Shown here: positions 2,571 to 21,428 of the stretch, in pieces
How the letters are laid out: the number at the start of each line of letters is the position of its first letter
Numbering within the stretch: position 1 is the stretch's first letter
The notes under the pieces: model-generated
What the model saw: only the letters and a program-made list of their open reading frames with translations
Database searches by the model: none
Told to the model about the DNA's origin: nothing
Made by a program: the position numbers and the translations under genes
DNA from: a virus
Length of the DNA: 24,851 nucleotides
Strand: one strand, 5' to 3'
IMG/VR virus record: IMGVR_UViG_3300017742_000113
Coordinates: 1 to 24,851 of that record

Positions 2571-3842
2571 ATGGCATTTTTCTTTAGTAGAGATACCAAA
2601 GTATTTATGACCCACAGCCTAGATGGAACGAGCGCTAAAACAGCTCTTTACGAGATACCTGTGTTAGACGGTTTTTCTTTCAGTCAAGGGACAAATACTT
2701 CAGAGGTTACTCTGAACGAAGCAGCCACCAGTGCTGGATATTCTAAAAGAGGTCGAGCAATGTTTACGGACTCTTTTGCCCCAGCAGAATGGTCGTTTTC
2801 AACCTACATGAGACCTACTACATCAGGAAGTGCAGCACCTAGTGCAGCAACTGATGGTGTTACTAATGGTCAACATGCTGGAGCCGCTAAAAAATTCGCA
2901 GTAGAAGGGCCTTTATGGTCTGCTATGTCTGCGAAAGACTATGACAAAGGAGCAGGACAGAATTCTGCAGGAACTATGACTGATTATGAGCCAAATGTTT
3001 TTAACTTTGCGAACTCTAATCAGGTCACTCTTGGAGTATTTGATTTGTTCTTTGTACTAGGAGCGTCTAAGGATAGTGAAGGTAATACTTACACTACAGG
3101 TACAGACGGTGTAACCGTTTATAAAGTAGCGGACTGTTCTATTGGATCAGCTTCCGTAGACTTTGACATTGAAGGATTAGCACAAGTTGCTTGGTCTGGA
3201 AATGGTAAATCTGTAGAAGAAGTAGCAACTCTAGAAACTAGAGCTACTGATTCAGGTAATAGTGTAACTGGAACTACCACTTTAGGTATAGTAAACGAAG
3301 GCATAAGTTCATCAAGTAACTTTATAAGACAAAAATTAACAGACTTAGCAATTAGCTTTGATGTATCAGCATCAACAGGTACATTAGGCGCATTGGCAGT
3401 AGACGGTGTAAATGATGTAACATACGGTGTTACATTAACAGGTGGTAATATTACAATCGAAAATAATCTTACTTATCTAACACCAGAAACATTAGGTACA
3501 GTTAATCTTCCATTAGGACATGTAATGGGAACAAGGTCAGTTTCAGGTAACTTCACGTGTTATCTAAATGACACAGCAAATGGGTCATTAGACTTATTTG
3601 AGAGACTACAAGAGTCTAGAGGCGTAATTACTAATGCGTTTGATTTAAACTTTGGCATCGGTGGAAGTGGAAACACTCCAAGATGTAATATTGAAGTTGG
3701 CAAAGCACATTTAGAATTACCAGCCCACAGCTTTGAAGATGTAGTATCAGTAGACGTGGCTTTCCACGGACTAGCAACTGATTTATCATCAAGCACAGCT
3801 GCAAGCGCGACAAACGAAGTTAAAGTAACTTACACGTCGTAA
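2571..3842 (+). CDS. Major tail tube protein
   Basis: This 423-residue protein forms the stacked rings of the tail tube. A good Shine-Dalgarno (AGGAG at 2560-2564) precedes the ATG by six bases, the strongest in this part of the operon and fitting for the most abundant tail protein. The N-terminal half has EIPVLDGFSFSQG and APAEWSFSTYMRP. The C-terminal half has TLTGGNITIENN, GTRSVSGNFTCYL and ELPAHSFEDVVSVDVAFHG. The segment FDLFFVLG at residue 157 is echoed by FDLNFGIG at residue 357, which suggests two copies of the tube fold in one chain. It is far longer than lambda gpV (about 246 residues) and nearer the two-domain T5 tube protein pb6. It is followed by an intrinsic terminator and the chaperone genes, the standard context. 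Confidence 0.85.
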   Translation: MAFFFSRDTKVFMTHSLDGTSAKTALYEIPVLDGFSFSQGTNTSEVTLNEAATSAGYSKRGRAMFTDSFAPAEWSFSTYMRPTTSGSAAPSAATDGVTNGQHAGAAKKFAVEGPLWSAMSAKDYDKGAGQNSAGTMTDYEPNVFNFANSNQVTLGVFDLFFVLGASKDSEGNTYTTGTDGVTVYKVADCSIGSASVDFDIEGLAQVAWSGNGKSVEEVATLETRATDSGNSVTGTTTLGIVNEGISSSSNFIRQKLTDLAISFDVSASTGTLGALAVDGVNDVTYGVTLTGGNITIENNLTYLTPETLGTVNLPLGHVMGTRSVSGNFTCYLNDTANGSLDLFERLQESRGVITNAFDLNFGIGGSGNTPRCNIEVGKAHLELPAHSFEDVVSVDVAFHGLATDLSSSTAASATNEVKVTYTS

Positions 3843-3855
3843 TAAAAACAAACTC

Positions 3856-3881
3856 GGAAGGGCTTCGGCCCTTCCATTTTT
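3856..3881 (+). terminator. Intrinsic terminator after tail tube gene
   Basis: A perfect 8-bp stem, GGAAGGGC (3856-3863) with GCCCTTCC (3868-3875), closes the stable tetraloop TTCG (3864-3867). It is followed by ATTTTT (3876-3881). It lies 13 bases after the tail tube stop and ends 11 bases before the next start. In such clusters a terminator here lowers expression of the chaperone and tip genes relative to the tube. Since no promoter is evident between it and the next gene, I infer partial read-through or antitermination. Confidence 0.9.
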
Positions 3882-3892
3882 AGGAATTAATA

Positions 3893-4330
3893 ATGACAGA
3901 ACAGAATGTAAAAAAAGAACCAGTATCGCTTAAGAGTTTATTAACTCCAAGCAAGACAGTAGGAATAGATTATCCAGGATATGATGGCTTCACAATTGAA
4001 CTTTGTTATTTAGGCAGAGAAGAATTACTCAAGCTAAGAAATAAGTGTTTAAAGCAAAAGTTTAATAAAAAGACTAGAGCCTTTGAAGATTCGTTAGATG
4101 AAGAGCTATTTGTAAATCAGTATAGTGCAGCGATAATTAAAGGTTGGACAGGATTAAAATACAAGTACCTCGAAGAGTTTCTGTTGGTAGATGTATCTCA
4201 ACTAAATCTAGAAGATGAACTTGAATATACACAGGATAACGCAGAGCTATTAATGAAAAATAGCGGCGATTTCGACCAATGGGTTACTGATACAATAGGT
4301 GATCTGGAAAATTTTACACAGAGCAAGTAG
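3893..4330 (+). CDS. Tail assembly chaperone, gpG-like (zero-frame product)
   Basis: This 145-residue protein lies between the tail tube and tape measure genes, the invariant place of tail assembly chaperones (lambda gpG). A helper RBS, AGGAA at 3882-3886, precedes the ATG. The N-terminus is polar (EQNVKKEPVSLKSLLTPSKTVGID). It then has a compact helical region with FTIELCYLGREELLKLRNKC, NQYSAAIIKGWTGLKYKYLEEFL and an acidic tail ending DTIGDLENFTQSK. G-type chaperones bind the tape measure and keep it soluble while tube subunits are recruited; they are absent from the finished virion. A slippery heptamer five codons before the stop lets some ribosomes continue in the -1 frame to give a 272-residue G-T fusion. 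Sequence similarity in this class is weak, so the call depends on position and on the frameshift. Confidence 0.82.
   Translation: MTEQNVKKEPVSLKSLLTPSKTVGIDYPGYDGFTIELCYLGREELLKLRNKCLKQKFNKKTRAFEDSLDEELFVNQYSAAIIKGWTGLKYKYLEEFLLVDVSQLNLEDELEYTQDNAELLMKNSGDFDQWVTDTIGDLENFTQSK
4297..4315 (+). promoter_or_regulatory. Programmed -1 ribosomal frameshift signal
   Basis: Seen directly: A AAT TTT at 4309-4315 fits the canonical X XXY YYZ heptamer in the gpG frame, and re-pairing as AAA TTT enters a frame that is open from 4303 to 4710. The zero frame stops at 4328. Just upstream, AGGTGATC (4297-4304) is complementary to the 3' end of typical 16S rRNA (GATCACCT), so it could act as an internal Shine-Dalgarno stimulator like the one known in E. 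coli dnaX. I see no clear downstream hairpin. Efficiency cannot be judged from sequence. Confidence 0.82.
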
Positions 4331-4710
4331 AACAAATACTTGCGCTAATCAAGAGAACTTTTAAAGACACAGGAATAGACCTGGATAAGTATTTAAAAGT
4401 TTGTGAACAATTAAATCAAGAGCCAGATCCTGATAAGATGCCTCCTTCTATGGATTCATTTCCAATAGAAGTTCAACAGGCATTTTTTCTACACCAAATG
4501 TTATCAGATAAATGGGAAGGTATGAGTGGTTTTCATATGGGAAAAGATGTAAGTGCTTTAGGTACTTATTTAGACCTTTATGATATAAAAGACAAAAAAC
4601 AAACTCTATACTTTTTTAAACATATAGAAAATGAACATTCACAGCTTATAAACGAAAAAATCAAAAAGAAGCAAGACGCCCAAAAAAATAGGGTTGGTAA
4701 AGGAACATAA
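4315..4710 (+). CDS. gpT-like extension, made by -1 frameshift from gpG
   Basis: This is the -1 frame part of the gpG-GT fusion. After slippage on TTT (4313-4315) the ribosome reads from base 4315 as YTEQVEQILALIKRTF and ends at 4710, adding 131 residues to the first 141 (272 in all). The frame has no start codon near the junction; the first methionine is at 4438, inside a conserved-looking helical stretch (DPDKMPPSMDSFPIEVQQAF), so independent initiation is unlikely. The region is helical and ends in a lysine-rich tail (INEKIKKKQDAQKNRVGKG). In lambda the T part binds the tail tube protein while the G part coats the tape measure, and the same role is inferred here. Its stop overlaps the tape measure start (TAATG). 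Confidence 0.82.
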   Translation, partial: YTEQVEQILALIKRTFKDTGIDLDKYLKVCEQLNQEPDPDKMPPSMDSFPIEVQQAFFLHQMLSDKWEGMSGFHMGKDVSALGTYLDLYDIKDKKQTLYFFKHIENEHSQLINEKIKKKQDAQKNRVGKGT

Positions 4711-7700
4711 TGGCAAAGATAAAAGGCGCAACTATTACCTTTGAGGTTACTGATGATGGTAGCCTTAAAATGCTTGACACACAAGCTAAAAAGACTGGCA
4801 AAAGTGTAGCCAAAGTTGGTAAATCTGCGGGAGATACTCGTAGAAATATGCAGGCTATGTCTGGACGTGTAGAATCAGGTACCAAAGGATTTGCACGTAT
4901 GCAACAAGGCACAGGTGGTCTTGTACAATCTTATGCTATTTTAGCTTCCACACTATTCGCTGTTGGCGCAGCCTTCCGTGCACTTCAAAATGCCGCCAAC
5001 GTAGAAAATCAAATCAAAGGATTCCGCGCACTAGGAGAAATAACTGGACAGTCAATGATGGGTGTTACTGCTTCAGTTAGACAAGCTACAGGCGGACTTT
5101 TAAACTTTCAAGACGCTGCTCAACAAGCCGCAATCGGTATGGCAGCAGGATTTACCTCAGAACAACTAACAGGATTAGCCGAAGGAGCTAAACTTGCTTC
5201 TGTTACTTTAGGTAGAGACTTAACCGATTCTTTCAACAGACTTATTCGAGGTGTTACTAAAGCAGAACCAGAACTATTGGATGAATTAGGTATCATTTTA
5301 CGACTAGACATTGCTACAAGAAAATTCGCAAATGCTAATGGACTAGTTGCAGAAAAGCTCACTATTGCACAAAGAAGAGCTGCTGTATTTGAAGAAGTTC
5401 AAAGACAGTTAATTGGTAACTTTGGTGCTATGAAAGACAAAGGAGACGAACTACTTAATCCATTCGATAGATTACTCACAAAAATAAATGACTTTGTAAT
5501 TAGTGTACAAGGCCCTATTGTAAAGGTGTTCGGAGGATTAGCAAACTTTTTATCAGACAACTTTGCAGCTCTAGTAACTGCTGTAAGCGCGTTCGCATTA
5601 AGTATACTAAGACAAATAGTACCTTCTTTTTCAGCAATGGGAGCCGCCGCAGTTAAAGCAGGGTCAACTGCAACTATAAAAATGCGTGCGTTAAACATAC
5701 ATATAATAAAACAGAAAAAAGCTATTAAAGCAGTAGAAGCTCAGTTTGGAGCAAGTGAAGTTAAGAAAAATCAATTCCTTCTTAGAGCTCTTAAGAAAAG
5801 AGGAATATCAGAAAAAGCATTTACATCTATGTCACTCAAAGAGCAGGCAAAAATTACAAGAAGTTTTATACTACAAGAAGAGAAAAAGAAAGCATTAGGT
5901 AAAAAGTACAACAAACAAAAATTAGCTGCTTTTATAGCTGTAGAAAAAAGAATTCAACTTGAGATGACAAAAACAACTCTGACTGCCAAAGCTCAGGCGA
6001 GAATTATTGGAGCACACATAAAAGCAGGTATTGCTATGCCCGCCTTAAAAGCACAAGCGGCAATTGCTGGTATAGGTGCTGCTGCTGCTAGAGCTGGCCC
6101 TGCAATAGCTATGTTAGGAACAGCAATGAATATCGCTTTTGGTGTTATTATGGCTTTCTTTACTGCTAAATTCATACTAGATTTACTACCTGCAACTAAA
6201 AAAATAAATGAGGCTTTTTCAGAAATAAACAGAAGAGTTACAGTATCAAATGAAGTAGTAAAAGACTTAGCATATACTTTATCTGGAGATTTAGCACAAA
6301 AAAGAGTAGAAGCAATTAAAGAAGAGTTTGTAGGCTTAGAAGGTAGCGTAAAAGCAGCAAACTATGAAATGGAAAGACTTAATAATATATTGAATAGAGG
6401 TCAAAGTTTTAAGACTTTTAAGAAAAACTTTGATGACTCAATAATTAAAAACTTCTCTTCTAATGAAGCTCAAAGCATGTTGGGAAATGTTATGCAGGCT
6501 GGAAATATATTTGCAGGTATGTATACTCAAGATGTTTCCGCATCTTCTATAGGATTTACTAGTACTGCTTATGATGCTGCAGCTAAGGAAATTGTTAATG
6601 AGTTTTTAGTAGCTTTCCAAAAAGAATATGCAGCAGAACAACTTAAAGTTGACGGGGCTCACTCTGATGGAGTACTAATGAGATTATTTGGTGCTACCGA
6701 CTTTAGTATGCTACAGCCGTTTAAAAAAGAATTTGCAGAACTTATGACCATTACAGATATTACTGATAGACAGACTGCAATTGCTGCTTTTATGAAAGAT
6801 ACTGCATCTGCCATTGTGAACCAAGGCGAAGCAGCAAGAGGTTTACTAGGTATTACGAATGATGGCAATGTCTTTATGACATCCGAGGCTGTAAAATCAA
6901 TGGAAGCAAATGAAAGAAATTTGAATTCCCTTAAAGCTATTACAGAAGTTATACCTAATACTAAAGCTGCTGCAGCAGAACTTAAAGAAAGTCTACAAAA
7001 TATGATGCCAAAACCTTCACAAGCAGAAGCAGCTATGTCGGGAATTGAAAGTGTACTAAATCAATTTAGTGACTCAGTAGAGGACGGCAATGGAGGATTA
7101 GAAAGACGACTAAAAGTATTTAGTAAAACAGAGGAAGGGCTGGAGAGTATATCTCAAGTTATGAGTGAACAATTAGGAATTCAATTTGAACTAACTGACC
7201 TTCATAAAGAAGATGCACAAAAAGTATTAGAGATACTAGAAACAGAACTAGAAAGATTAGCCCTTGCGGATAAATTAATAGACACTGCAACAGCATTTAG
7301 TGCTGCTTTAAAAACACAAGTAAATATGGTTAAATTTTTAAAGACAAGTGCAAGTAAACGTATGCAAATAGATTTAAATATACTAAAGTTACAACAACAG
7401 ATAATACAAAACAACGCAAAAGAAGTAATAACTAATTCAACTCTCGTAAAATTAGGCGAAAAAGTAGAAGAAAATAGAGAGAGAGGAATTCTAACAACAC
7501 AAACAGTCAATAGAGAATTAGAGTCACAAATAGACTTATTAATAGCAATGAAAGACCCTATAGAACAACTAGGAAAAACAATGCTAGAGTCTTTTGATAA
7601 ATCAGGAATACAGAATTTAACAACACTTATTGATACTATGGATTTAAGTGAATTTGGTGGTGATGAGCTTATAAATAATGTCGCTAAAGACATGAAGAAG

Positions 7701-17200: not shown

Positions 17201-18817
17201 GGTATATTTAGTTTCAGTATAGATGGAGTTAGTGATACTTATGAAGTACTTGACTCAACAAGTAGAACTCGTTTTGGAAGACTAAGAGCTGGAACAGACC
17301 CTATTGACGGAACAAACAGTATACGAAATGCTGGTATAACTTTAACGTCTGCTGGAGTTTTAGGAGGAGCCGGTGGCGGAACACTAGACCTCAACGATGT
17401 TAATGATACAGGAAGTACTAAAACAGGAGCTGCAAGAGCTAATGCAGGGCTAACTTCAGATGGAGATGTAGACAGAGCAGTACCAGTAGGTGTAGGTGGA
17501 ACAGGACAAACAAACACAAACAAATTTTTAAATAGCGGCATAGCTATTAGCCAAGGAAACTCTGGTGTATTTACACTAACAAAAGGGGATGGTACAACTG
17601 ATACCACTACTATAACAAAAGGTAAACTAGGACTTTCATATACAGACGGTGCTGACGTTACTGGAGACAATACTGCTAATGATGTTAGTAATGTAAATGG
17701 TACAGCAGCCTCTACCGTACAGGGCGGAGCTGCAAGAGCCAACGCAGGTCTAACTTCAGTTGGAGATGTCAGTAGAGCAGTACCCGTAGGTGCAGGTGGT
17801 ACAGGTCAAACAAATACAAATAAATTCTTAAATAGTGATTTAGGAATTACCTTAGATGGTAATAATATTACACTTACAAAAGCAGGAGATACTAATTCAA
17901 CGGACACAGTACCTACTGCACTTAAAAACTCTAATATAGCAATTAATGGTAGCGGACAGCTAACTGGTATTGGTACCGGGGTAAATACTGTTATATCAAA
18001 CGCATCGATAGTAGCAGGAGACATAAGCGGCTCTGGAAAAGCATTCGCAGTTTTACCAGCTTCAGGAGCTACAGTAGGTGCGGTATTAGGTACTAACCTT
18101 AAAGCATCCAACGGTACAACTACTCTAGGAGACAATGATGTTAAGAATACTGCACTTGATGTTGATATAGATGGAACAAGTATGAGGTTAAAAATAGGCT
18201 CAACTGTAACATCAACAGTAACAGCAACTCAAGGACTTGTTGGATTAAGTGGAGTATCTAATAATGCAGACCAAACAAGTAGTAATACTGCTAATGATGT
18301 TAGTAATGTAAACGGTACAGCAGCCTCAACAGTGAAGGCAGGAGCTGTAAGAGCAAATGCAGGTTTAACTTCAACTGGAGATGTTAATAGAGCAGTCCCT
18401 GTAGGAGTAGGCGGAACAGGTCAAACAGCTACAAATAAATTCTTAAATAGTGATATTGGTATTGCTATGGATGGAACTAATGTAACTATAACCAAAGCGG
18501 GAGATACTAACTCAGCTGTTGCTATTCCAGGTACTTTAAAAAATACTAATATTAGTTTTAGTAGACCAACTACGGGAACTTTAAGATTAAACAATGGCTC
18601 AAATAATGACATAACACTAACAGCAGCTGATGCTCAAATAACATCAGATTCAAGCGGTATAAATGTAGCAAGTGTGCGAAAAGCAACACATAATGGTAAT
18701 GCTATAAACTCTTCTGGAAATGTAACTTCAAGTATGAGTGTTGCAAGTGGAGGAAGTATAGTAGTAGGAAATATAACAATAGATGGAACAAACGGGAGAA
18801 TTTTAATTACAGACTAA
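11294..18817 (+). CDS. Tail tip attachment protein, gpJ-like, with giant fibre-like C-terminus
   Basis: At 2507 residues this is more than twice lambda gpJ (1132). The N-terminal 950 residues are the tip hub: TISEGPIEGLVDQGASIKLN at 38-57, VWIFMDLMTNPRYGLGQYI near 556, and GINGAMLRPGDVLNVQDPD near 755. A fibronectin III-like domain follows at about 972-1093. Beyond it are beta-rich modules: two related Ig-like units opening with NENHNFPS (near 1348) and NEAHTFPS (near 1578), and two units of the type WYDDIADVP...IWVSKG and WYSTLTAARN...VWFSVG. Collagen-like Gly-X-Y runs (near 1565, 1688 and 1859) join them. The C-terminus has three near-identical 36-residue repeats centred on VPVGVGGTGQTNTNKFLN. 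gpJ binds the host receptor; here the far C-terminus is the likely contact point. The stop overlaps the next ATG. Confidence 0.92.
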   Translation: MAIILRNDNENEPVVGGDLPTTSSNGMTREQTAVIYDTISEGPIEGLVDQGASIKLNGNPAYNYGDKDIVAILDSNDVSYVASTGVITDNNNPSFIDSANTAQGSRDVLIVGGSKAGTITTTIGNTTITSASGFTFAASDVIGEGEKRLQPQIRITSAGIDGSDLITTITEFVSSTSVKVALAPSASVSGTAVELDYVGTVSSYDNSNNRVTITAGGRNVSNVSATLSTPERTSEQAPLAKYDNFLWAFRNGEREQSYLPTPSGVGSGSAAHTVSGGDLKTVPNTGYPAWNQLRVSIGDNPTYTGTTKTVTADEMGIDNPGEVDLIRCTFNFPQGCYKWKAKDSTLRHAGALIRIKFHYQRGSNAYKTVIVNGASSYSNLPRKEGYTPDDGHYAAGGFSNKTKQGFNYLFEFDISKYGPFDDYYLTFERINEVGGEYGNWVVSNNAVLKVVENIVMDRLSYPYSAFGAVIVDAQDFSSIPKRSYEIRGLKVQVPTNYFPKDELIQGSSVRRTTPSYTRNVTSGVDTSNYTDWDGNFRGDIKTFAPGHANYDTVYTSNPVWIFMDLMTNPRYGLGQYINPDFDFAQIDRYTLFGLAKYCDELVPDGKGGQEPRFECNIYIQKSTNAIKVLKDFSSTMRSMLIWWNGSVTLGANIQKGAVYTFTKSNVIDGTFSYAGTSSRFKHNQVIVTWTNPEKQYKQDNVVIEDSSNIAKTGQVKTKNVTAFGCTSKGQAIRYGKWHLFSELNEEEIVNFSTGINGAMLRPGDVLNVQDPDVHDVVASGRVTTTTSSSSTVIKTDRDISSFLNTTDNFNLHLIYPLGGAYLTQQSATINSVDYKQGDLVLVDESGAAIDTDVKASNVRDDSGSIVQLFWSDEVRVETKPISSFNTTSITVSSAFSSAPNAEVIYTVSGQEEDGGNVAGSLKQYIVTSIKEDIQNLTFAISAQEYKPEKFTKIDRGYLIPDIPTVMQPPKDTDAVPEPTSVALEMVASGFGSEVGSTTDRDLLISWQHPVTTRVDDNGNNINDVYEHLSGYEIAYRHPGVDDPDKFIRITIPSLNTTSYNLSEVSGNGEIIVRVRTINTLGITSSWEQRRLTVNEEKILPFGVPTLGEGLNGGIMKGGILSCPINIESANGTVTFASSSYTFDSPSSEEESTITVSSGNTAFTTQADFDNLSDGQTGYLLLDHDGSLSRGATRTDLLQPIVFHTEETTTDIDGTENYFKYVKRLGESNEDFVQASGTITLSANSTEVSGSSTAFTTDFQPGDVIIIDTAGATRFFSTVSHITSDTALSLSTVSTRSYSGKNVFRQALRISNAEDCILGSVTNTSGVYSFINFSSGNRGTDAYSINGTNENHNFPSNAAGVVSDFSSFSNSYTVNKGTISYTFASSGSATNTFGLSTATTNCTAVVNSSTGAITVTAITADTASFIVTITDRGTSETIGTRVVSLGKSIPGAAGAGTDSRTVNLTASDYSITYAADGTTPTPSGTITLTATSQNFSNPFFKFTGDGISDEGTFTDGSGASDTFSFSIPSNIVTTPQTIKVGVSEANQTELAFDTITLTSLQQGSQGTDGAPAYTAIITNEAHTFPSSNTGVVSSFGGSGTKIEVYKGATQLTPVANTGTPGTGQYDITTTATNITVGSFTLNTGSEKNITVADHSGVANGTDNSEIEYSINIENDVTLTKAQTFTKSKKGTDGDDGATGKKVKELILYYPANFNNNTFSIPTTPTSGVYHFGNNVIASIASGWQQAIPDDAAGAIYWTSETLATESSTANTSGSLSWSTPGNSRTPQFQVEFIFQRSANQPTTPSITNFPVIPTNWYDDIADVPSGSDAIWVSKGTTQFSLVGGTYGFKTTWQAATRIEGSNGTDGTDGDDGNDGASNFTVFQESNTPPSQPSAGTSNPPTSSWYSTLTAARNAVSGDGLVWFSVGTKPGTSNTITWSVPIRYVEEYDHVGGTKPPFDANKFLVPVNTTDGIFSFSIDGVSDTYEVLDSTSRTRFGRLRAGTDPIDGTNSIRNAGITLTSAGVLGGAGGGTLDLNDVNDTGSTKTGAARANAGLTSDGDVDRAVPVGVGGTGQTNTNKFLNSGIAISQGNSGVFTLTKGDGTTDTTTITKGKLGLSYTDGADVTGDNTANDVSNVNGTAASTVQGGAARANAGLTSVGDVSRAVPVGAGGTGQTNTNKFLNSDLGITLDGNNITLTKAGDTNSTDTVPTALKNSNIAINGSGQLTGIGTGVNTVISNASIVAGDISGSGKAFAVLPASGATVGAVLGTNLKASNGTTTLGDNDVKNTALDVDIDGTSMRLKIGSTVTSTVTATQGLVGLSGVSNNADQTSSNTANDVSNVNGTAASTVKAGAVRANAGLTSTGDVNRAVPVGVGGTGQTATNKFLNSDIGIAMDGTNVTITKAGDTNSAVAIPGTLKNTNISFSRPTTGTLRLNNGSNNDITLTAADAQITSDSSGINVASVRKATHNGNAINSSGNVTSSMSVASGGSIVVGNITIDGTNGRILITD
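17426..18448 (+). repeat. Three 36-residue fibre repeats in the gpJ-like C-terminus
   Basis: Units of 108 bases lie at 17426-17533, 17726-17833 and 18341-18448, all in frame, with the core ARANAGLTS.GDV..AVPVG, then .GGTGQT.TNKFLN. A further stretch encoding TANDVSNVNGTAAST precedes units two and three (from 17672 and 18287) and is almost identical in DNA over about 40 bases. Spacing is 300 then 615 bases. GGTGQT-type motifs recur in many phage fibres. The DNA identity makes the region prone to in-frame deletion or duplication by recombination. Confidence 0.85.
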
Positions 18818-19728
18818 TGGCAAATCGAATATTATTAGGAGACATAGGAAGTACCTTTGGACTCAAAGTATCTAGAGCAGGTACTGATGTTACTACTGGA
18901 GCAGATAAAGATATGCTCTTTGACTCTACAAAAAATAGAACAGGGCAAATATATGGAGGAGGGGCTGGTATAACATTTGTAGATAGCTCTAGTGATCAAG
19001 AAGCATATGTAAGAGGAACAGCAAACTTATATGCTACTCCTTTTACTGGACAACCAAATGGGGGTTACACAGGAAAAAAGATAATAATAGATGGAACTAC
19101 TGTAACACTTAGTACTACTAGTAGTTACTTTAACTATACTTATACTACTGTAGATAACATGAAAACAGATATTAATGCTGCAGGTATAACAGGAGTAACA
19201 GCTTTTAGAAGCACTCTTTCTAGTACTGACCATAGGTTAGGGCTTAGAAAAACAACTTCTGATATGGTAATAACTTATCCCGCTTCAGACTCATTAGAAG
19301 CAATAGCAGGAATATCTGCAGGAACATATGACTATCCTGATTTGTCTTCTGCTGGATTAAACTTTTTAACTGGAGGAGCATCAAATAAACCTAATTTAGG
19401 ATATATACCTTTAGTACTTTTATCGGAGCAACATGCAGGAGGATATGAAGGTGAAAACAGCGAAGACGAAATATATGAATCTGTAAATAGACTCAATCTA
19501 TTCAAAACAACTTCTAGTACTATACACCCAGTAGCTGCACAAGCATCTCTACCTGCTGATCAAAGCAGCCAAGGTACAGCTGTAGGCGCTCCTGTAGCTG
19601 TAGGAAGATTTTATGAATATAGCGACGGTGACTATGCGCAAGAAACAGAAATGGTCAATGCAAATTTCTTTATAATAAGAATACCTTGTGCATATGGCTA
19701 TATGACAACTACTTATTTTGGAACATAA
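18817..19728 (+). CDS. Tail-fibre-associated paralogue 1 (MANR..LG tag)
   Basis: This 303-residue protein is the first of three neighbours that share an N-terminal tag: MANRILLGDIGSTFGLKVSR, then AGTDVTT and a MLFDSTKN segment. After about residue 45 the three have no obvious similarity. This one continues with a glycine-rich stretch, a serine/threonine/tyrosine-rich beta region (TTVTLSTTSSYFNYTYTT) and a mixed C-terminal domain ending RIPCAYGYMTTTYFGT. I know such proteins only as uncharacterised genes beside tail fibres in marine phages. Position directly after the gpJ-like gene, TAATG overlap included, suggests an accessory tip or fibre protein whose tag docks on a shared site. No enzymatic motif, signal peptide or membrane helix is visible. 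Confidence 0.6.
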   Translation: MANRILLGDIGSTFGLKVSRAGTDVTTGADKDMLFDSTKNRTGQIYGGGAGITFVDSSSDQEAYVRGTANLYATPFTGQPNGGYTGKKIIIDGTTVTLSTTSSYFNYTYTTVDNMKTDINAAGITGVTAFRSTLSSTDHRLGLRKTTSDMVITYPASDSLEAIAGISAGTYDYPDLSSAGLNFLTGGASNKPNLGYIPLVLLSEQHAGGYEGENSEDEIYESVNRLNLFKTTSSTIHPVAAQASLPADQSSQGTAVGAPVAVGRFYEYSDGDYAQETEMVNANFFIIRIPCAYGYMTTTYFGT

Positions 19729-19730
19729 TC

Positions 19731-20213
19731 ATGGCAAATAGAATAATACTAGGGAAAAACACAAATAGTAATCATGGACATAGTTCAGGTACTCCAGGAT
19801 TTGGACTTTATATATCAAGACCAGGAAAAGATGTAACTACTTGTACTGCAGATGAATTAATTTTTAATACTGACAATGGAACAGGAACAAGTTTAGGAAG
19901 AATAATATCTATGTATCAACTTGCACCTATACCACAAGCAGGAGGAGGAACAAACACCACGACTACCTCTAGTATAACAGCAGGAAACGCAGTAACTTTA
20001 GATATAAGTAGTATAGATTTTGGTATTGATTTTGGATTCATTAGTTTCGGACTTTTAGCTCCAGTAACATATGGAGCAGGGTCAACTGCAAGTTCTTACG
20101 ATTATAATGTGAGTGAGTCTTTGGAAACAATAACTATTGAAAATACAGGAACAACATCTTTAACTGTAAAATCATATGTAGTACCTAGGTACTCTAATTT
20201 GGCACTATTCTAA
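19731..20213 (+). CDS. Tail-fibre-associated paralogue 2 (MANR..LG tag)
   Basis: This 160-residue protein begins MANRIILGKNTNSNHGHSSG, then GFGLYISRPGKDVTTCTADELIF, so it has the same tag as its neighbours but with about nine extra residues between the LG and the GL. The start at 19731 was chosen over an earlier in-frame ATG at 19686 because the tag aligns exactly there and the earlier start would run into the upstream coding region; it lies two bases after the previous stop. The remainder is a small beta-rich domain with a run of Thr/Ser (GGGTNTTTTSSITAG) and an apparent Ig-like core (AVTLDISSIDFGIDFGFISF, VKSYVVPRYSNLALF). It probably belongs to the tail tip or fibre set. Function is unknown beyond that. 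Confidence 0.6.
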   Translation: MANRIILGKNTNSNHGHSSGTPGFGLYISRPGKDVTTCTADELIFNTDNGTGTSLGRIISMYQLAPIPQAGGGTNTTTTSSITAGNAVTLDISSIDFGIDFGFISFGLLAPVTYGAGSTASSYDYNVSESLETITIENTGTTSLTVKSYVVPRYSNLALF

Positions 20214-20830
20214 TGGCAAATCGAGTATTATTAGGTAAAAGAGGAAGCACAGACCATGGTCTATTTGTTTCTAGATCGGGACAGGATGTATTAACTTCTA
20301 CTCAACCTTTAGGGTTTGATTCAAGAGCTGCAGAAAGTCTAATTCTACATTCAGCCTCACAAGGAATACTAGTTCCAAATGTTCAAGATAGCTCAGGAGT
20401 ACAAGTTAGTTTTACATTTAATGGAGTAACTGAAAATCAACATACCGCGACTATTACACATAATTTAGGTTATGTACCTTGTTTTGCAGTACGATGGTGT
20501 ACTTATAATCAAATTACTAGTGGCTTAGCAACTGAAGTTTATCCTCCTTTCTCATACTACTTAGATCAAAGTTCGAGAGTAGAAGAGGGAGACGAAGAAG
20601 GAGAAGAAGTAGAATTCCCAGGAAGTACTGCAGAATCGGGACTAATAGTAAGCAGTACAACAAATAATACTATAGTATTAAAAAACACAGTAAGACAACA
20701 TCATGACGATGATACAACAGAAACAGCAGCAGGGTACATGAGAGGAACATTTCCTTATACTGATTCTAGATATTTTTGGAGTTGTGTAATATTTACAGCA
20801 GAAAATTTTTTAAACGGAGAAAGTTTATGA
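20213..20830 (+). CDS. Tail-fibre-associated paralogue 3 (MANR..LG tag)
   Basis: This 205-residue protein starts MANRVLLGKRGSTDHGLFVS and continues RSGQDVLTSTQPLGFDS, the third copy of the shared tag, in a TAATG overlap. Its body carries FNGVTENQHTATITHNLGYV followed by PCFAVRW; the T-I-T-H-N-L-G-Y motif is common in beta-structured tail fibre and tail knob domains. A very acidic loop (VEEGDEEGEEVEF, near residues 124-136) and a histidine/aspartate-rich loop (RQHHDDDTTE) follow. Such loops could bind metal ions, but this is only a suggestion. The stop overlaps the next start (ATGA). Role in host surface recognition is inferred from the motif and context. Confidence 0.6.
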   Translation: MANRVLLGKRGSTDHGLFVSRSGQDVLTSTQPLGFDSRAAESLILHSASQGILVPNVQDSSGVQVSFTFNGVTENQHTATITHNLGYVPCFAVRWCTYNQITSGLATEVYPPFSYYLDQSSRVEEGDEEGEEVEFPGSTAESGLIVSSTTNNTIVLKNTVRQHHDDDTTETAAGYMRGTFPYTDSRYFWSCVIFTAENFLNGESL

Positions 20831-21246
20831 TATATAATATATTTTATGATAATGATAAAAGCATAGTGTGGTCTACTACAGGACTAATCAATGACGCAAT
20901 AAAAAGCGCACAAGCAGATTTAGGAAACAGTCACGTTGCCTTAGAATCTGAAAATATACCTGATGGCAATTTCTATGTAAATAGTGATGCAACTGCCTTG
21001 GTTGAAAAAAGTATATTTAACTGTGTGTTTTCAACAACAAATCCTGCTATTGATGAAGTAGTTAATGTAACAGGAGTTCCAGTAGGCACAGAAGTATTTA
21101 AAGACGGTGACTCTATAGGAACTATGACAGATACTACATTAACCCTTACGACTCAAGAACCTGGGCAGTATATAATAAAATTTAAAAAACTCCATTATAA
21201 ACAACATAGTGGGACAACAGTAACAGTAAAGAGGTACGGACAATGA
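20827..21246 (+). CDS. Small fibre-cluster protein with beta-rich C-terminus
   Basis: This 139-residue protein starts at 20827 (MIYNIFYDNDKSIVWSTT): the ATGA overlap with the previous stop and GGAGA at 20816-20820 support it, whereas an in-frame ATG at 20776 lies deep in the upstream gene. The N-terminal half (residues 1-65) includes SAQADLGNSHVALESENIPD and NFYVNSDATALVEK. The C-terminal half is a compact beta domain: GVPVGTEVFKDGDSIGTMTD, TTLTLTTQEPGQYIIKFKKL, similar in feel to small Ig-like or PEGA-type sandwich folds. I cannot name a family. The tight coupling on both sides places it in the fibre operon, perhaps as an accessory or assembly protein. Confidence 0.5.
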   Translation: MIYNIFYDNDKSIVWSTTGLINDAIKSAQADLGNSHVALESENIPDGNFYVNSDATALVEKSIFNCVFSTTNPAIDEVVNVTGVPVGTEVFKDGDSIGTMTDTTLTLTTQEPGQYIIKFKKLHYKQHSGTTVTVKRYGQ

Positions 21247-21428
21247 ATATAAATTTAAGCAAAGGTAACACACCTGCAGAGAAAAGAGCAAACTATTACG
21301 CACAACTAAAAGAACAATTAGATTTACTATACCACGATATTGATTCTGGTAAGTTTGGCGATACAGCAAAAACTGGACAATTTTATTTAGCTAGGAAAGC
21401 TGTTAAAGACAAATTCCCAAACTCGTAA
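21243..21428 (+). CDS. Small helical fibre-cluster protein
   Basis: This 61-residue protein starts in an ATGA overlap with the gene before it (AGAGG at 21230-21234 precedes). It is highly charged and helical: AEKRANYYAQLKEQLDLLYH, then DIDSGKFGDTAKTGQFYLARKAVKDKFP. The segment QLDLLYHDIDSGKFG is a pattern I associate with many small conserved proteins near fibre genes of marine phages, but I know no function for it. Its size and helical nature would suit a fibre assembly helper or a short adaptor; this is a guess from position. It is the last gene before the strong promoter, so it probably closes the upstream transcription unit. Confidence 0.55.
   Translation: MNINLSKGNTPAEKRANYYAQLKEQLDLLYHDIDSGKFGDTAKTGQFYLARKAVKDKFPNS

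Follow-up and report, generated by a model that had tools for sequence, protein, structure and literature searches.

The window analyzed here, that is, the whole stretch of 24,851 bases, comprises an entire IMG/VR record and carries a lambda-type tail module, in which the minor tail proteins M and L, a Prok-JAB (K-like) protein, I, and gpJ were found. The M-L-K-I-J order and the homology of J are shared with the lambda tail tip, and this lambda-type tail-tip module lies upstream of three consecutive genes, designated here A, B, and C according to the slot they occupy and collectively referred to as the trio. The gpJ homologue is located directly upstream of A, with its stop codon overlapping the start of A, while the trio genes have hardly any spacing and the stop codon of B overlaps the start of C (Table 1). 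The values of 303, 160, and 205 residues, given as body lengths in a sequence-only reading of this DNA, are in fact those of the whole proteins. The C-terminal third of gpJ contains about three long near-repeats of the type SNVNGTAASTV..GA.RANAGLTS.GDV.RAVPVG.GGTGQT.TNKFLNS.

Table 1. Coordinates of the trio, its tags, and neighboring features in the window.
Feature	Position	Strand	Evidence or remark
gpJ homologue (central tail fibre / host specificity), 2507 aa	11294..18817	+	phrog_31 'central tail fiber J' E=1.7e-111; Pfam Phage-tail_3
C-terminal gpJ motif, conserved (GNITIDGTNGRILITD); candidate trio platform	18767..18814	+	motif R-I-x-I-x-D
A (slot 1 of the trio), 303 aa	18817..19728	+	same-slot orthologues in all relatives
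Tag of A, residues 1-39	18817..18933	+	matches the B and C tags by profile
Domain inserted in A, about residues 60-181	18994..19359	+	alignment; missing from L031, L032, and most relatives
B (slot 2 of the trio), 160 aa	19731..20213	+	orthologues found in 23 loci of IMG/VR
Tag of B, residues 1-49	19731..19877	+	hairpin loop exceeds those of the A and C tags by 10 aa
C (slot 3 of the trio), 205 aa	20213..20830	+	body residues 43-197, predicted beta-sandwich
Tag of C, residues 1-39	20213..20329	+	low confidence in monomer model
139-aa gene after the trio	20827..21246	+	place conserved in marine relatives; weak phrog_18216 match
61-aa gene after the trio	21243..21428	+	conserved in marine relatives; phrog_8886 (function unknown) E=3.7e-14

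Sequence comparison revealed that the three proteins start with a common N-terminal tag of ~40 residues, which reads MANRILLG...GLKVSRAGTDVTT in A, MANRIILG...GLYISRPGKDVTT in B, and MANRVLLG...GLFVSRSGQDVLT in C. The pattern is that of a strand, a loop, and a second strand (MANRVLLG-loop-GL.VS.PG.DV.T), followed by L.FDS. The tag had been proposed from the sequence alone and is borne out far beyond chance, both by single-pair BLASTP of the window proteins (A-C, E=7e-8; A-B, E=5e-7) and by profile-profile alignment with 40 sequences per slot (A-B, E=4e-22; A-C, E=2e-23; B-C, E=3e-20). These profile matches were limited to the tag for A-B and B-C, whereas the A-C match extended to an LGY.P motif. 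The likeness of the gene starts at the DNA level also held, as the record contains exactly three copies of their pattern and the reversed control none; it is explained by the likeness of the proteins together with the codon bias of start regions.

Conservation and slot specificity of the trio

Relatives were gathered by IMG/VR searches, for which the single proteins and a tag profile served as queries. About 70 loci were obtained, and reading them by their tags gave this arrangement of three tagged genes behind gpJ in almost every case; removal of duplicates at 80% identity left 40 divergent phages. In all 40, Rhizobium isolates included, A, B, and C are consecutive and follow gpJ in the same order, and the loci with fewer than three tagged genes were truncated by a contig end. 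Of 25 whole records, ranging from 7 to 117 kb, every one gave exactly three matches to the tag profile (E up to 1); among them are the complete genomes of RHEph10, RHph_Y1_11, RHph_Y2_11, and the Brevundimonas phage vB_BpoS-MaInes; since the whole records were chosen via the tag, this count describes tag-bearing phages rather than all phages. The trio follows the annotated J in the three Rhizobium phages and a putative tail fibre gene in MaInes. A search of bacterial genomes with the tag pattern gave 21 pattern matches, none of which was confirmed as a homologue. As to gene annotation, the middle trio gene of RHEph10 (L036, 6413-6766) is annotated too short (6509-6769), so that its tag is left out, and the first trio gene of MaInes (L109, 5001-5432) carries no annotation.

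The three slots were found to be distinct in both parts of the protein. For 109 of 120 tags, the nearest one in another phage came from the same slot, a count that dropped to 29, 12, and 15 of 40 for very distant phages (body identity <27%), and BLAST matches between bodies numbered 1873 within slots against a single marginal one across slots. Swapping of bodies across slots was rejected on these grounds, and the slots A, B, and C are, as judged from sequence, non-interchangeable. In three contigs from three metagenomes (L033-L035), A and B are joined in a single open frame that has the B tag in its interior, and all three tags are retained where the contig includes C (L033, L034); this fusion favors joint use of A and B over their alternative use.

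These results bear directly on the proposal, made in the sequence-only reading, that one docking site on the tail tip accepts any of several tagged adhesins, whose bodies are exchanged at the seam between tag and body. The common tag agrees with such a model, as does the stronger conservation of tags (0.53-0.58) than of bodies (0.28-0.33) within slots. It is nevertheless improbable, because the gene number is always three, the order is fixed, all three genes coexist in every whole record, tags and bodies are specific to their slots, and one lineage has A fused to B. In the phages found through the tag, the attached bodies were bound to their slots instead of exchanged between them. The constant association of the trio, in the same order and in very different phages, thus suggests joint building of the tip and not competition for one site.

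Divergence, insertions, and predicted fold of the bodies

The bodies had been described as seemingly unrelated, and at ordinary sensitivity this holds. With body-only hhalign profiles of 40 sequences, however, a weak A-C relation appeared (E=0.0015, 16% probability), while no relation was found for A-B or B-C with the same profiles; HMM searches of the bodies gave E about 2e-4 for A against C and 0.004 for A against one B body. The compact proteins of the Rhizobium and Brevundimonas phages can be aligned over their full length in all three slots (tag, I..G, P.V, and final Y.V strands), and the B and C bodies of MaInes align with a z of 7.5. The weak likeness between slots, the alignable compact proteins, and the MaInes alignment together favor a single ancestral gene that would have been triplicated long ago, with conservation of the tag and divergence of the body. 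The alternative named against an attachable tag, that it is an integral part of three similar folds, is accordingly borne out in part by this weak similarity across slots.

Insertions in the family are placed mostly within the tag hairpin or the body. Slot A proteins have 134-206 aa in most relatives, as compared to 299-311 aa in the window and its like, in which the inserted domain of A is located. In L034 and L055, about 210 and 80 residues, respectively, are inserted inside the tag, between the NRV.IGK strand and GL.(V/I)S. The slot A protein of L103 (1484-2482) has a Hint/intein-like domain within its body (Pfam Intein_splicing, E=9.9e-7), and the C proteins of L059, L081, L084, L085, and L088 have 277-339 aa, with internal insertions. 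Judged by these sites, the tag is most readily viewed as a hairpin with an insertion-accepting loop and the bodies as varying in their loops. The seam, which had been put forward as the point where bodies are recombined, thus does not appear to be the main recombination point, new domains being found there rarely, and this location of insertions in loops further disfavors the single docking site. That model does draw some support from the C protein of L069, whose tag is 74-84% identical to those of other same-slot proteins while its body is only 17-23% identical; for these few same-slot pairs, either fast divergence or occasional body replacement could account for the dissimilar bodies.

Structure prediction was informative for C. 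In the monomer model (16 sequences), residues 43-165 reached a pLDDT of about 75-90 and formed an all-beta sandwich, while residues 1-40 had a pLDDT of about 40, the tag being unfolded and predicted as disordered in the isolated monomer. Such disorder is what would be expected of a docking segment, also under the single docking site model. The A model was poor (mean pLDDT 47) and not usable for fold search, its best-predicted part falling within the inserted domain; a sandwich fold of the A and B bodies is probable by extension from C. Foldseek of the C model gave no match against the PDB at E 0.001 or better, and its two best matches among viral models were uncharacterised proteins; matches to picornavirus and rotavirus jelly-rolls were taken as generic beta-sandwich likeness. 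In VIA-align, the C body matched best the C-terminal domain of the Pseudomonas aeruginosa pseudaminidase (Z 7.7), followed by the C-terminal domains of tailspikes (Z 5.3-5.8), a baseplate protein of phiKZ (5.5), and, weakly, the H-type lectin Helix pomatia agglutinin (Z 5.4, 75 residues aligned). The beta-sandwich topology of C loosely resembles that of the trimeric heads of H-type lectins and tailspikes, with scores (Z 5.3-7.7) in the chance range and no sequence relation found. Because Z values <8 are also seen for unrelated beta-sandwiches, a lectin-like function is only a lead, and no lectin model was matched in Pfam searches with slot C, slot A, and compact members. Pfam and PHROG searches of the window trio proteins returned one weak match and no covering family, and PDB sequence searches found no significant relative of them. 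With slot profiles and single proteins, searches of Pfam, PHROG, and PDB gave scattered single-member matches, which were attributed to inserted domains or chance.

Assembly of the trio on gpJ

Tags of different slots from one phage resembled each other more than those from separate phages did (for A-C, 0.561 as compared to 0.508; p 2e-4 by permutation for all three pairs), although the excess is small (0.03-0.05 identity) and was lower without one clade (A-B, p 0.02; A-C, 2e-4; B-C, 0.005). No such within-phage excess was found for the bodies in the same comparison. Recent gene conversion of the tags was rejected as its source, because sharing of synonymous codons was equal within phages (observed/expected 1.22-1.31) and between phages (1.25-1.28). 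The covariation fits mutual contacts of the tags or a common platform. A plausible docking platform is the C-terminal end of gpJ, which is of the type ..ID....RI.I.D, closing with R-I-x-I-x-D, in at least 35 of the 40 divergent phages; covariation of this gpJ tail with the tags was weak (partial r 0.15). The part of the earlier proposal that treated the shared segment as a docking tag is supported by its position beside gpJ, its unfolded state in the C monomer, and the slight within-phage likeness, in so far as it is separated from the idea of alternative adhesins.

Taken together, these data argue, with a probability of roughly 0.6, for an ancient and obligatory trio of paralogous tail-tip proteins in lambda-like phages, which are non-interchangeable and would be co-assembled and have beta-sandwich bodies. 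The genetic context points to a place of the trio in the virion at the tail tip, where contact with gpJ, joint assembly, and binding of a receptor would be its probable functions. A, B, and C would all be produced from one operon and assembled together; the gpJ trimer would end in the conserved strand motif, which may hold the three tags, one protein per position, with the bodies forming the outer heads on its tip. The receptor-binding role that the gpJ C-terminus has in lambda might in this way be split among three added proteins. As to stoichiometry, we tentatively propose an A:B:C heterotrimer, in which each protein would occur once and which would cap the gpJ homotrimer as a pseudo-threefold ring with three different receptor-contacting heads. 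Such a 1:1:1 heterotrimer on a trimeric platform would account for the presence of always three tags, alike yet slot-specific, and for the tolerated fusion of A with B, and is probably the simplest explanation for the constant number.

Phage fibres are usually homotrimers, and the main rival would be a serial stack of homotrimers, with A on gpJ, B on A, and C on B, forming a segmented fibre tip. The conserved order J-A-B-C and the fusion of A with B as adjacent segments are compatible with this arrangement; each tag, however, would then be expected to have a different partner, yet the tags remain alike and covary, and drift in the number of segments would be expected, yet there are always three, which leaves the stack a rather doubtful candidate. 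That the trio encodes fibre assembly factors or chaperones absent from the final virion is quite unlikely, as the beta-sandwich of C, the fast-evolving loops, and the inserted domains are what structural proteins in an exposed position typically show, even though fibre genes are often followed by assembly-protein genes and RHph_Y1_11 has, further on, a gene with the annotation fibre assembly. For the 139-aa gene that follows the trio in the window, a role as an accessory protein or assembly factor is possible.

Conserved N-terminal anchors with exchangeable C-termini are known from T7-like fibres and from the tailspikes of Ackermannviridae. The trio resembles such anchor-type receptor-binding proteins in its conserved N-terminus and fast-evolving body, and differs from them in consisting of three fixed, slot-specific paralogues with no exchange of bodies across slots. 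In lambda, gpJ is a trimer with a central fibre and its C-terminus is the receptor-binding domain (PMC10721106), whereas here three separate proteins follow gpJ. The baseplate fibres of siphophage JBD30 are gp47-gp48 heterodimers (PMC11445458) and thus a precedent for hetero-oligomeric fibres, made of two proteins and encoded by genes other than those of the window. The closest counterparts are the Rhizobium phages RHEph10, RHph_Y1_11, and RHph_Y2_11 and MaInes, which like the window have three consecutive same-tag genes with compact bodies after the J or tail fibre gene, but with bodies of only about 80-125 aa; the trio proteins of the Rhizobium phages are annotated as hypothetical, and part of the Rhizobium and MaInes set has no gene annotation. 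No description of the trio was found in the literature covered, from which subscription papers were mostly absent. While tail-tip proteins beside gpJ were already known, a fixed set of three tag-sharing paralogues appears to be new.

The constancy of three paralogues in phages from marine metagenomes, Rhizobium, and Brevundimonas, with bodies often <30% identical, represents an unusual constraint on host-contact proteins and gives a functional context to genes so far annotated as hypothetical. If the heterotrimer on gpJ is true, three different heads would be displayed at one virion tip, which may bear on the combination of receptors; the cultured Rhizobium and Brevundimonas phages are a concrete target for cryo-EM.

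Additional genes were observed around the trio in some relatives. L008 has collagen-like GPQG repeats in its gpJ and, between gpJ and the trio, a gene (3625-4602) that encodes a capsule-synthesis domain (PF05159, E=1.5e-8); ORF ends similar to it were seen in L069 and L088. In L047 and L081, an ORF between gpJ and the trio, upstream of slot A, has an end that by eye is like a 2-oxoglutarate/iron hydroxylase (FPSYLTHRV...KGTRRSLVNW). After the trio of L026 (8588-12463), CsgF (Pfam E=8.8e-18), CsgG (1.9e-45), a secreted repeat protein, and FecR and CHASE2 proteins make up a curli-type secretion block near the tail module. Curli genes are reportedly mentioned in papers on marine phages (PMC9004378, PMC7029224, PMC9599517), and blocks similar to that of L026 are present in L021-L025, L027, L033, and L034.
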